DNA of 64,000 bases, from the NCBI RefSeq assembly GCF_004366815.1, contig NZ_SORI01000002.1:1-64000 (forward strand). Direction: 5' to 3'. Shown here one piece after another: positions 1-34,403 of this stretch; position 1 is the first letter of the stretch, and each line of letters starts with the position of its first letter. This stretch comes from Aminivibrio pyruvatiphilus (GTDB lineage Bacteria; Synergistota; Synergistia; Synergistales; Aminobacteriaceae). The position numbers and the translations under genes were made by a program. The notes under the pieces are model-generated. The model saw only the letters and a list, made by a program, of their open reading frames with translations, did no database searches and was not told the origin of the DNA.

Positions 1-68
1 GCGAAGGATGTTATGCCGCTTTCACCGCTCTTCAGTTCGATATGGATTTTCTTCGCCTTTTCCGTCAT
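1..68 (-). CDS. N-terminus of an unidentified protein, cut by the window edge
   Basis: Only the first 22 codons are visible, reading leftward off the window. The ATG at 66-68 is preceded by an AGAGAGGTG Shine-Dalgarno at a normal distance, so this looks like a real start. The visible residues begin MTEKAKKIHIELKSGESG and are basic then amphipathic, with no signal peptide. The family cannot be recognised from so little sequence. Its ribosome binding site lies in one arm of a 10-bp inverted repeat (see 78-160). Confidence 0.5.
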   Translation of the reverse strand, partial: MTEKAKKIHIELKSGESGITSF

Positions 69-77
69 AATGAACGC

Positions 78-160
78 ACCTCTCTGGTGAAGGGTTGTGT
101 CGTCGTAAACACTACCTTAACACTGTTCTCCGAACAGTCCAGAGAGGTTTTTTATTTTTC
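78..160 (-). promoter_or_regulatory. Inverted-repeat leader that could mask a ribosome binding site
   Basis: The sequence at 78-87 is the exact reverse complement of 139-148 (10 bp). Between them is a second perfect repeat, ACTGTTC-TCC-GAACAGT at 122-138. Read leftward, the 78-87 arm contains the Shine-Dalgarno of the partial gene at 1-68, so pairing would hide it. Read rightward, the same stem is followed by a T-rich tract (148-159) and could act as a terminator. Which strand uses it cannot be settled from the sequence. Confidence 0.4.
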
Positions 161-191
161 AGGGTGCGGATTTAGGTCCGCCATCTTTATT

Positions 192-219
192 TTGACATCC
201 CGGGAAAGTACTATAGAAT
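192..219 (+). promoter_or_regulatory. Sigma-70-type promoter for the UPF0182 gene
   Basis: TTGACA at 192-197 and TAGAAT at 214-219 are separated by 16 bases. The predicted transcription start falls within a base or two of the ATG at 228, so the message may have essentially no leader. Confidence 0.6.
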
Positions 220-27474: not shown

Positions 27475-27589
27475 CAGGGGTGAGCAGAATCATTCCCCGA
27501 AAATGAATATGCCTTCGACCTGCAAAATCTCCAGAAGATTCTGCAGGCACTGGGTCTGGAAAGCGATTTCCATTCCTGCCGCATTTGCA
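27475..27589 (+). ncRNA. Structured leader of the AOR mRNA, candidate riboswitch or attenuator
   Basis: Between the predicted transcription start and a strong terminator lie two clear hairpins. The first is a 12-base stem (27519-27530 with 27536-27547, one mismatch). The second is GGAAA-GCGA-TTTCC (27558-27571) with a GNRA loop. The right arm of the first (TGCAGG) can instead pair with CCTGC at 27575-27579, enclosing the second, so two exclusive folds exist. This layout suggests a conditional leader. I could not match it to a known class. Confidence 0.45.
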
Positions 27590-27630
27590 AAGGAGGATCA
27601 GCCGGCTTCAGCCGGTGGTCCTCCTTTTTT
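27590..27630 (+). terminator. Terminator inside the AOR leader
   Basis: AAGGAGGA at 27590-27597 pairs with TCCTCCTT at 27619-27626. Inner pairing CCGGC/GCCGG extends the stem to about 16 pairs, followed by six T. It stands 54 bases before the AOR start, downstream of the only visible promoter, so it must be read through or controlled. Confidence 0.75.
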
Positions 27631-27683
27631 CATTTCACCCCTTTCAAAATACAGGATGCACAAAATCAAGGAGGCGAAGAGAT

Positions 27684-29483
27684 ATGGACAAGTTCGGCAA
27701 AGTACTGCGCGTCAATCTCTCCAACGGAACCGTCGCAAGCGAGAGTCTCTGTGAAAAAACCCTGAAGGACTACATAGGCGGCCGCGGATATGCCACGAAG
27801 GTGCTTTACGACGAGGTACCCAAAGGCACCGATCCCCTCTCCCCCGAGAACAAGCTCATTTTCGCCAACGGCCCCCTCACCGGCAAGGGAGCTCCCTCCG
27901 CCGGACGGTACATGGTCATCACCAAGAGTCCCCTCACTGGATGCATCGCCAGCAGCAACTCGGGCGGATTCTGGGGAGCCGAGCTCGCCAGGGCGGGCTG
28001 GTTCATGATCATTCTCGAGGGCAAGGCGGCTAAACCCGTCTATCTCTGGATCAACGACGACAAGGTGGAGATCCGCGACGCCGCCGCCGTCTGGGGCAAG
28101 GACAGCCATGCGGCCACCGACGCCCTTCTCGAAGCCGTGGGCGATTCCAAGGCGAAGGTCACCTGCATCGGCCCCGCCGGTGAAAGGCTTTCGAAGATCG
28201 CGGCGATAATGAACGACAAGAACCGGGCTGCAGGACGGAGCGGTGTCGGCGCCGTCATGGGCTCCAAAAACCTCAAGGCGGTCGTGGTCAAGGGCAGCGC
28301 CCGCCCGTACGTGGAAAACCAGGATGAGATGAAGGCCGTCCTCGCCGGGGCCATGGAAAAACTGAAGACCAACCCCGTCACCAGCCAGGGCCTCCCCACC
28401 TACGGAACCGCGGTCCTCGTGAACATCATCAACCAGCTCGGCGGCTACCCCAAGAACAACTGGCAGGGAGCCTACTTCCCCGAGGCTGACACCCAGTCCG
28501 GCGAAACCCTCGCCAAGGACTTCCTCACCAAGAGATACTCCTGCTTCGGCTGCCCCATCGGCTGCGGCCGGGTCACGAAGGTCGGCGACCGCGAGGGCGA
28601 AGGCCCTGAATACGAGACCATCTTCGCCTTCGGCGTCTGCTGCGGTGTCGAACGTCTCGAGCCCATCATCGAGGCCAACTATCTCTGCAACGAATACGGC
28701 CTCGACACCATAAGCGCCGGTGTCACCATCGCGGCGGCCATGGAGCTCTACGAAAAGGGACTGATCAAAAAGGAAGAACTGGAAGGCGGCCCCGAGCTCC
28801 GCTTCGGCAGCGATGACGCCGTCACCTACTGGACGAAAAAGATGGGGCTCGTGGAAGGCCTCGGCAAGAAGCTCGCAGAGGGCTCCTACAGGCTGTGCGA
28901 AATGTACGGCCACCCCGAGTTCTCCATGACCGTCAAGAAGCAGGAGATGCCCGCCTATGACGGACGGGCCATCCAGGGAATCGGCCTGAACTACGCCACG
29001 TCGAACCGGGGAGGATGCCACGTGAGAGGCTACACCATCTCCCCCGAAGTCCTCGGACTTCCCGAGAAGCTCGACCCCGTGGATATCAGCACAAAGCCCA
29101 CATGGGTCATGATTTTCCAGAATCTCACCGCGGCCATCGACGCCTCCGGCATGTGCCTCTTCACCTCCTTCGCCCTCGGAGCCGACGACTATGCAGCGTT
29201 CCTCAAGGCAGCCACGGGCTTCGACTATGACGGCGCCGCAGCCCTGCAGGCGGGAGACCGCATCTGGAACATCGAGCGTATGTTCAACCTCCGCGAAGGC
29301 CTCGATCCTGCGAAGGAAGACACCCTTCCCGACAGGCTGCTCAAGGAGCCCATTCCCGACGGTCCTTCCAAGGGAATGCTCAGCCGCCTTCCCGAAATGC
29401 TGCCCGAGTACTATAAAGCCCGCGGATGGGATGAAAAGGGCGTTCCCACCGATGCGAAACTCCAGGAACTGGGACTGAAGTAA
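27684..29483 (+). CDS. Aldehyde:ferredoxin oxidoreductase, tungsten-type (AOR family)
   Basis: The 599-residue cytosolic enzyme oxidises aldehydes (or reduces acids) with ferredoxin, using a bis-pterin tungsten cofactor and one [4Fe-4S] cluster. Cluster ligands are Cys287, Cys290, Cys294 (CFGCPIGC) and Cys491 (SGMCLF), close to the positions in Pyrococcus AOR. The N-terminal pterin domain has IGGRGYATKVLYDE. Start at 27684 follows AAGGAGG. The gene is flanked by ThiF-like and MoaD-like genes, which could build or sulfurate its cofactor, and it is preceded by an attenuator-like leader. It would help dispose of aldehydes from amino-acid fermentation. Confidence 0.93.
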   Translation: MDKFGKVLRVNLSNGTVASESLCEKTLKDYIGGRGYATKVLYDEVPKGTDPLSPENKLIFANGPLTGKGAPSAGRYMVITKSPLTGCIASSNSGGFWGAELARAGWFMIILEGKAAKPVYLWINDDKVEIRDAAAVWGKDSHAATDALLEAVGDSKAKVTCIGPAGERLSKIAAIMNDKNRAAGRSGVGAVMGSKNLKAVVVKGSARPYVENQDEMKAVLAGAMEKLKTNPVTSQGLPTYGTAVLVNIINQLGGYPKNNWQGAYFPEADTQSGETLAKDFLTKRYSCFGCPIGCGRVTKVGDREGEGPEYETIFAFGVCCGVERLEPIIEANYLCNEYGLDTISAGVTIAAAMELYEKGLIKKEELEGGPELRFGSDDAVTYWTKKMGLVEGLGKKLAEGSYRLCEMYGHPEFSMTVKKQEMPAYDGRAIQGIGLNYATSNRGGCHVRGYTISPEVLGLPEKLDPVDISTKPTWVMIFQNLTAAIDASGMCLFTSFALGADDYAAFLKAATGFDYDGAAALQAGDRIWNIERMFNLREGLDPAKEDTLPDRLLKEPIPDGPSKGMLSRLPEMLPEYYKARGWDEKGVPTDAKLQELGLK

Positions 29484-32495: not shown

Positions 32496-33023
32496 CTACA
32501 GTTTCAGCGCAATACCCGCCACGGCACCGGCAACGATGATCAGGGCGGGGTGAAGGGGCGAAAAAATCATCAGGGCCAGGGAAACGGAGCCGATGACCCA
32601 GGTGGTCCGGTTTTTCAGCGCATTCGGCCCCATGTCCCAGGCCGCGTAGGCAAGCATGGCCACCACCACGGGACGGAGCCCCCGCAGCATGCTCGTCACG
32701 AGGGGATTGTCCTTCACAAGGGAGACAAACCCCATCAGGACCAGCAGGGCAAGGGCACTCGGCAGAATGATCCCCGCAAGGGCCACCAGTGCTCCCGGCC
32801 ACCCGGCCTTCCGGTATCCGATGGCGGCTGCCATCTTGGTGATAATGGGCCCGGGGAGGGCATTGCCTATGGCCAGTGCATCCATGAAATCCTCCGTGCC
32901 GATCCATTTCCGGCGCTCGATCACCTCGGCCTTCAGCAGGGGCACCATGGACGGCCCTCCGCCATAGGCTACGGACCCGGTCTTCGCAAAGGACACGAAC
33001 AGGGCCAGAAGATCTTTTCCCAA
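32496..33023 (-). CDS. Short chromate-transporter (ChrA-half) protein, first of a pair
   Basis: The 175-residue membrane protein carries the same CHR motifs as its neighbour (AYGGGPSMVPL, AIGNALPGPIITKM, SMLRGLRPVVVAML), and the pair probably forms a heterodimer with opposite membrane orientation. Start is TTG at 33023, seven bases after GGAGG; this makes the two proteins nearly equal in length. An upstream in-frame ATG would place the Shine-Dalgarno inside the gene. The operon is preceded by a promoter (33135-33163) with a terminator-like hairpin (33061-33095) in its leader. Confidence 0.85.
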   Translation of the reverse strand: MGKDLLALFVSFAKTGSVAYGGGPSMVPLLKAEVIERRKWIGTEDFMDALAIGNALPGPIITKMAAAIGYRKAGWPGALVALAGIILPSALALLVLMGFVSLVKDNPLVTSMLRGLRPVVVAMLAYAAWDMGPNALKNRTTWVIGSVSLALMIFSPLHPALIIVAGAVAGIALKL

Positions 33024-33060
33024 AACAACTCCTCCTTCATTCCGTTTCCTGATGTACGGC

Positions 33061-33095
33061 AAAAACGTTCCTGCGAAGGGATCTTCGCAGGAACG
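33061..33095 (-). terminator. Terminator-like hairpin in the chromate-transporter leader
   Basis: A perfect 12-bp stem (33066-33077 with 33084-33095, loop of six) is followed leftward by TTTTTG. It lies between the promoter at 33135-33163 and the first transporter start, so it could attenuate the operon. Confidence 0.7.
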
Positions 33096-33134
33096 CCGAA
33101 TCTCGAACCATCTTCCGTGTACGGTGCATTTTCG

Positions 33135-33163
33135 ATTTTAGATGATTCTCCGGTTTTTTTCAA
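33135..33163 (-). promoter_or_regulatory. Promoter for the chromate-transporter pair
   Basis: Read leftward, TTGAAA (33158-33163) is followed after 17 bases by TAAAAT (33135-33140). Transcription would begin near 33128. Confidence 0.6.
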
Positions 33164-33173
33164 TCGCACCGGC

Positions 33174-33350
33174 CTTCAGCCTAAATCCGCAGGCAGCGGG
33201 GAGCGTCACCGGTGCTCGCTTGGGCCGCCGGTGCAGATTGTCGTCCTTGACAACTGCACCTGAAACCGACATCCTTGTCGGTTTCTCGGCCCGGGCGCTG
33301 TGCCCGGCGACACTCCCTCTGCCAGGAGAAGCTGCGGATTTAGGTTCAGG
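33174..33350 (+). ncRNA. Multi-armed inverted-repeat element: structured RNA or small mobile element
   Basis: The ends CCTAAATCCGCAG (33180-33192) and CTGCGGATTTAGG (33332-33344) are perfect complements and the pairing extends outward with wobbles. A second stem follows inside (33193-33203 with 33313-33322, one bulge). The interior folds into hairpins at 33207-33233, 33232-33258, 33262-33285 (perfect 10 bp) and 33289-33308. Three pairs are G-T on the plus strand, favouring a plus-strand RNA. The 13-mer TGCGGATTTAGGT of the right end also occurs at 165-177. It occupies most of the gap 33164-33397; no coding frame is supported there. Confidence 0.5.
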
Positions 33351-33397
33351 ACGACACGAGGGGGAACGTTATCCCGGGAGAGGGATTCCCCGGTACT

Positions 33398-34312
33398 TCA
33401 CCGTCCGGCAAGAGCGGCCTTCGCTTTTTCCCAGGGCAGGACGGACAGGGGCATGGCCGCCCTGACGGTCTTCTTCGGGTCCACTACCTGGCTGATCCTC
33501 AGGTCCATGGAAAGGGAGCACAGAATGAGGGCATCTTCGAAGGAAAGGCCCAGAGCTTTCCGCACCAGGTCGGTCATGGCCTCGCTCGCTGAAGTGACGG
33601 CCCGCTCGATGGATTCTTCCGAAGCGATGATGACGATCTCTTTCTCCGTCACGGCAATGGGCCACGGAGCGGATAACCCCTTCAGCAGGTCCAGGACGAC
33701 GGTGACCCTGGCGGGTACTTCCGCTCCCGAACAGCCGATTTCACCGTCCCCCATCACCGCGTGGCAGTCGCCGAGGGCAAGCATGGCACCGCTCCGGCGC
33801 ACGGGAAACCAGACTGTCGTTCCCTTGCGGATATCGGTGGTGTCCATGTTTCCTCCGTGGGCTGCCGGGGTACCGGTGGGGAAGATCCCTTCCTCAGGAG
33901 CCACCCCGATGACACCGATCATGGGCTTCAGGGGCAGGGTAATGCCTGCAAAGGTGCAGGTGCCTTTTTCCCGGTCAATCATGACCACTCTGGTAACAGG
34001 CTTTTCCACTTTTCCCGGAAGGGCGCCTTCTCCGGGAATGACCACTGAAACGGCCTGCTCTTCCACCCGGATATCCTCTATGAACACGCCGAGGAGGTCT
34101 CCTTTTTCCGCCCCCCTGACGGCCACAGGTCCGGTGGCCGGGTTGATGTAATCGAAGTTGATTTCAGTGCACAGGTCGTTTTCCGACCCGATCTGCCCGG
34201 CAAAACAATCATTCGTCTCGAAGAGGATCCTCTCCCCGGGAGAAACCTCAAGGACGGGCTTCATCTCTGCGCTGAAGGCGTAGATGTTGTTATCTGACGT
34301 GACGATATTCAT
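33398..34312 (-). CDS. Acetamidase/formamidase family protein, short form
   Basis: The 304-residue protein belongs to the FmdA/AmdA family, which hydrolyses short amides to ammonia and an acid. Recognisable blocks are NPATGPVAVRGAEKGD near residue 60, GTPAAHGGNMDTTD, and LGDCHAVMGDGEI. Size matches the roughly 300-residue bacterial form. Of two in-frame ATGs the second (34312) has better spacing from GGAGGG. It stands alone, with the structured element downstream. The window holds a second, longer family member at 49479. Confidence 0.88.
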   Translation of the reverse strand: MNIVTSDNNIYAFSAEMKPVLEVSPGERILFETNDCFAGQIGSENDLCTEINFDYINPATGPVAVRGAEKGDLLGVFIEDIRVEEQAVSVVIPGEGALPGKVEKPVTRVVMIDREKGTCTFAGITLPLKPMIGVIGVAPEEGIFPTGTPAAHGGNMDTTDIRKGTTVWFPVRRSGAMLALGDCHAVMGDGEIGCSGAEVPARVTVVLDLLKGLSAPWPIAVTEKEIVIIASEESIERAVTSASEAMTDLVRKALGLSFEDALILCSLSMDLRISQVVDPKKTVRAAMPLSVLPWEKAKAALAGR

Positions 34313-34403
34313 GGACATTCCCTCCAATTCTCCGTTTGCTCCGTGAATTTCCACTTAACCGAACCAAGAGTACCATATTTTAAACAGGGGGCAATCGCGG
34401 GAG

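Follow-up and report, generated by a model that had tools for sequence, protein, structure and literature searches.

We describe an IS1380-type MITE in Aminivibrio pyruvatiphilus that is, at a probability of about 0.92, moved in trans by an IS1380-family transposase and inserted non-randomly upstream of promoters. The element lies at 33180-33344 of the analysed stretch, a window of 64,000 nucleotides. An initial annotation of this DNA had left the choice between a small non-autonomous mobile element with terminal repeats and a structured RNA; the mobile reading has strong support, since the element exists in multiple copies, carries perfect 5-bp target duplications, is missing from an orthologous site and has a putative autonomous partner in the same genomes with the same 12-13-bp ends.

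The element and its dispersed copies

The perfect 13-bp ends of the initial annotation are confirmed by our analysis. Its 177-nt span (33174-33350) contains a real element but includes the TTCAG duplications on either side, and the element proper is shorter. Its parts are as follows.

33175-33179: target-site duplication, left copy TTCAG, same letters as 33345-33349
33180-33344: MITE proper, 165 bp, delimited by 13-bp TIRs and the flanking 5-bp duplication
33180-33192 (+): left TIR CCTAAATCCGCAG, 100% complementary to 33332-33344
33192-33227: long-range stem of the body, 5' side, pairing with 33288-33323 (fold and pair counts)
33230-33260: apical hairpin 1 (GGTGCAG..CTGCACC; fold and pair counts)
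33262-33285: apical hairpin 2 (GAAACCGACA..TGTCGGTTTC; fold and pair counts)
33288-33323: long-range stem, 3' side; extra arms of other copies are inserted in the body
33332-33344 (-): right TIR, 100% complementary to the left TIR
33345-33349: target-site duplication, right copy TTCAG

The element has no coding capacity, and the ORFs that overlap the window copy all run out across its ends. Multiple copies with target duplications had been named beforehand as the mark of a mobile repeat, and this is what BLAST of the genome and its relatives returned: 49 matching pieces in the 62 contigs of the own genome and matches in two of the four other members of the genus, with none in 56 genomes of other genera and none in the plasmid collection. 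A pattern scan of the genome contigs gave 45 unrelated loci with one exact 16-mer match each. From the loci fetched we collected 62 distinct copies in three species of the genus, 50-446 bp long and thus below the limit of about 600 bp for MITEs; a perfect 5-bp duplication was the selection rule for this set, and in the unfiltered copy list such duplications are likewise found at most TIR-bearing copies.

The dispersed copies are polymorphic in presence and absence among relatives. In the sister species G001, the joined flanks of the window element align straight through the orthologous locus, which is an empty site. At the orthologous G002 locus a longer copy, of about 265 bp and flanked by a separate duplication (TCTTC), lies 2 bp off, most simply an independent insertion. 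Some MITEs stand directly beside an IS or the end of another MITE with an identical 5-bp spacer (L023, L024, L034, L039), as expected if successive elements use one target. The 2.9-Mb genome of G002 has 144 exact TIR matches, many of them single or in tandem arrays with a common 5-bp spacer, a heavy MITE load in comparison with its sister species.

Copies of 131 bp that lack TIRs were considered as a separate, older element, as their homology stops sharply at GGCAG/CTGCC. Decayed TIR remnants are present in several of them (L012/L048, L178, L015), and we read the TIR-less copies as old MITE copies.

Fold, strand and turnover of hairpin arms

Is the element a structured RNA? An undescribed riboswitch, sRNA or attenuator under selection on a plus-strand transcript would account for the very strong fold (-111.8 kcal/mol, z -9.6, with none of 200 shuffles equally stable). 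When the window was scanned in 40-nt steps, the lowest 165-nt energies fell at the two grid points that overlap the element. The initial annotation had described a second long-range stem and four internal hairpins; the predicted fold contains one long-range stem, and its apical hairpins number two, not four. Among the copies, pairing is retained in 93% of cells and seven pairs have changed on both sides, and in apical hairpin 1 older copies carry a U-A to C-G change of both partners. G-U pairs are also somewhat more frequent in plus-strand RNA, six against two on the minus strand by MFE, which is only a slight bias because both strands fold about equally well (165-bp energies of -107.9 and -106.5 kcal/mol; z -10.2 for the minus strand against -9.6 for the plus strand).

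The case for selection on plus-strand wobble pairs nevertheless fails on two counts. Both neighbouring genes lie on the minus strand, so that read-through RNA would be minus-strand RNA, in which the G-U pairs noted earlier become A-C; and in a set of 25 distinct 165-bp copies the changes from the common pair are not enriched in G-U, with 9 G-U against 17 A-C cells. An RNA gene is further contradicted by the dispersal of copies with target duplications over unrelated sites, by the orthologous G001 locus that lacks the element, and by an Rfam search of the window, which has no family at the element and a Moco riboswitch at 27501-27611 as its sole match over threshold. The retained pairing is evidence that mobile copies keep the fold-back and not of selection on an RNA, and transposition and conversion of a DNA fold-back would also produce the modest covariation at paired positions. 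We thus regard the structured RNA as highly improbable, and return to the element as a MITE.

Copies differ from each other by whole hairpin arms. The two hairpins of the window type occur in 30 of the 62 copies; 12 copies have an added CCCCAGGGG arm of 46-49 bp, at the equivalent of about 33300-33302, and 9 have a further branched arm between the two apical hairpins. The longest copy (446 bp, L026:1105-1550, own genome C1) lacks both apical hairpins and carries seven CCCCAGGGG arms in tandem. L011 has an orthologous copy, L178, from which it differs by a single arm, and at L019/L199, one insertion site in two species, the element is inverted in place and differs in arm number, the inversion presumably having arisen via recombination between inverted arms. 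These differences at orthologous sites indicate that arms are gained and lost after insertion. In our reading the fold-back body is passenger DNA in which arms are gained, lost and tandemly multiplied, most likely by slippage and/or recombination between copies.

A probable IS1380-type partner and the promoters beside the insertions

The first 12 bp of the left TIR of the window MITE equal the end of an IS1380-type IS, one copy of which breaks off at the start of the window.

1-176 (-): IS1380-family IS, left end, with TIR at 165-176 and the first transposase codons; the contig breaks inside it
192-197 (+): -35 box TTGACA, 15 bp outward from the IS end at 1-176, with a second hexamer TAGAAT at 214-219

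In the own genome, eight contigs terminate in CCTAAATCCGCAGGTTC.. sequence and eight in CCTAAATCCGCACCCTG.. followed by the first transposase codons; the two sequence types represent the opposite ends of one repeated IS, at which the assembly was interrupted. The own genome has several IS copies, every one cut at a contig end, and since so many contigs break inside the IS this assembly conceals how many copies there are (about eight or more). Full copies are found in G002:C76 (about 1.9 kb, transposase of 533 aa, duplication CGGTC) and in G004:C163 (transposase of 559 aa, duplication ATTTG), with IS ends CCTAAATCCGCA../..GCAG. Both transposases exceed the cut-off for PF13701 (DDE_Tnp_1_4); against the IS1380 model NF033539 they score 174.1 and 186.6 bits, the former just below the NCBIfam cut-off of 180. 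The TIRs starting with CC and the 5-bp duplications of both full copies agree with the 4-5-bp duplications and CC-starting TIRs of the IS1380 family, as in IS1247, which makes 5-bp duplications (PMC3281130). MITE and IS have the terminal 12-14 bp in common and nothing more, so the MITE is not a simple internal deletion of the IS. From the shared ends, the shared genomes, the duplication length and the target preference we infer that an IS1380-type transposase moves the MITE: it would recognise the 12-13-bp MITE ends in trans and duplicate 5 bp of the target.

The target preference is seen in the flanks. Counted outward, the motif TTG[AC] stands precisely at offset 14 beside 14 of 21 IS right ends (Poisson p 1e-20), in 15 of 62 MITE left flanks (p 3e-17) and in 10 of 62 MITE right flanks (p 2.5e-11), or 25 of 124 MITE flanks pooled, against about 0.2-0.5 per offset on average at other offsets; these statistics treat flanks as independent, a few being orthologous, and the IS and MITE end sets are defined by strict TIR patterns. 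IS left ends have no significant signal at offset 14 (1/11). In base composition the flanks differ from background at 14-15, with a second departure at 38 and 42, the expected place of a -10 box, and 24 of the 62 MITE copies (about 40%) are without a promoter of at least 8/12 matches at the expected distance. Five IS1380-type elements of other genera (G007, G016, G020, G068, G069; the IS ends at G016 and G020 assigned by eye) have TTGAC or TTGAA 13-14 beyond the right end, and at least one of the five belongs to another family of the order; in three of the eight IS1380-type elements inspected individually (G004, G021, G028) the motif is absent at that offset. MITE copies also avoid convergent gene pairs, with 2 of 66 between such genes by our own simple gene caller against about 18% for IS in general (PMC9208149).

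At the window locus the following neighbours are found.

32496-33062 (-): chromate transporter gene (PF02417, E 6e-49); its true start may lie slightly downstream of 33062
33135-33140 (-): -10 box TAAAAT, spacing 17; 10/12 matches, where shuffles average 0.1 sites
33158-33163 (-): TTGAAA, the -35 box of the targeted promoter, lying 16 bp outside the left TIR
33398-34354 (-): acetamidase/formamidase gene (PF03069, E 4e-31)

The promoter TTGAAA-N17-TAAAAT reads into the chromate-transporter gene on the minus strand. An equivalent promoter, TTGAAA-N17-TACAAT, is legible in the empty G001 site, and the promoter therefore predates the insertion. The window MITE parts the acetamidase gene from the chromate-transporter promoter.

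How might such spacing come about? In the mechanism that we propose, the transposase sets one end of the element at a distance of 14 bp on the upstream side of a -35 motif, TTGAC. Elements would thereby collect just upstream of promoters, and the insertion would displace upstream DNA and leave the promoter intact. The IS has two unlike ends, of which the right one is set next to the promoter; the MITE lands either way round because its two ends are near-identical and of the right type. The same spacing could in principle reflect the survival of harmless insertions, those within promoters being harmful and hence lost, or selected promoter capture. Selection of either kind predicts a broad upstream zone, though, and the observed peak is a single base, at offset 14; among the IS right-end flanks that have TTGACA at that offset, at least two look like coding DNA and contain a poor -10; and the promoter legible in the empty G001 site was there before the element. 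We consider survival or capture improbable, and targeting by the transposase the better account of the spacing.

Related systems and the fate of old copies

Promoter-directed insertion in bacteria has so far been described for one transposase superfamily. TnGBS, ISLre2 and ISKra4-group elements, whose transposases are prokaryotic Mutator-like, settle 15-17 bp upstream of sigmaA promoters, to which they turn their right end, and both orientations occur where the ends are symmetric (Guerillot and colleagues, PMC3942029). The system described here is like them in its fixed -35 distance, in the right end turned to the promoter (offset 14 at the 14 of 21 right ends against 1 of 11 left ends given above) and in the same rule of end symmetry. 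It differs in its IS1380-type transposase, the 14-bp distance, the 5-bp duplication and a MITE that shares the targeting; the partner transposases match only IS1380/PF13701 and DDE_Tnp_1, and no Mutator-like match was obtained. The system thus resembles TnGBS, ISLre2 and ISKra4 in its working and is not a member of that group. PMC3942029 contains no mention of IS1380, and we found no report of a fixed 14-bp distance to -35 boxes for IS1380 in the literature searched, outside which subscription journals largely fall, so that novelty is provisional.

With the IS1380 family (NF033539 / PF13701) the partner IS shares the transposase family, short TIRs starting with CC and the 5-bp duplication, whereas the MITE is gene-less and has only the ends in common. 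Short dispersed fold-back repeats between genes are also familiar as palindromic repeats of the REP, BIME and ERIC type, from which the present element is set apart by true TIRs, 5-bp target duplications and a matching full-length IS. The BrickBuilt MITE of Porphyromonas gingivalis is intergenic and holds a variable tandem array of 23-bp minisatellite units (PMC4596501). Our element is likewise a bacterial intergenic MITE with a variable tandem interior, but its interior is built of hairpin arms of 46-49 bp and a branched arm, its ends are IS1380-type, and it targets promoters.

If promoter targeting holds for the IS1380 family and its non-autonomous partner, the same geometry arose more than once, and the mechanism becomes testable as a choice between reading of the -35 sequence and contact of the transposase with RNA polymerase. 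A promoter-seeking transposase could serve as a natural promoter-finding tool, and at orthologous sites the arm-variable body records which hairpins have been gained and lost.

Some old, immobile copies may have been domesticated, with selection retaining the body upstream of promoters, where it would insulate or act as a regulatory spacer. The orthologous immobile pair L012/L048 has decayed ends (TIRs differing at 7 of 26 positions) and flanks that differ at 27 of 297, with a body that differs at 1 of 139 (Fisher p 0.0003 against flanks, 8e-6 against TIRs), and activators act about 50 bp upstream of transcription starts, where the copies sit. This is a single pair, however, picked after looking, and in the old pair L011/L178 the body is not conserved in this way (18/138, with 29/299 in the flanks); bodies would also stay similar under gene conversion by other copies, and no terminator-like site was found in 32950-33500. 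We therefore hold domestication to be possible but doubtful. Similarly tentative is a wider proposal, that a branch of IS1380 independently evolved promoter-guided transposition, in which the end is placed 14 bp upstream of the -35 box through recognition of TTGAC or through RNA polymerase contact, and that the multi-arm MITE uses it to deliver a large extrudable hairpin to about -50 of many promoters, with some immobilised copies kept as insulators or regulators.

Two further structures were observed in the window. The Rfam match at 27501-27611 (+), with 39.6 bits, is a molybdenum/tungsten cofactor riboswitch (RF01055); the next ORF downstream, 27585-29483, is by eye an aldehyde:ferredoxin oxidoreductase. 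Between the chromate-transporter promoter and the start codon lies a long hairpin (CGTTCCTGCGA..TCGCAGGAACG) at 33063-33097 (-), which may be a regulatory hairpin of the leader; the orthologous loci of G001 and G002 have it too, and the G001 hairpin has changed on both sides, from T-A to C-G.
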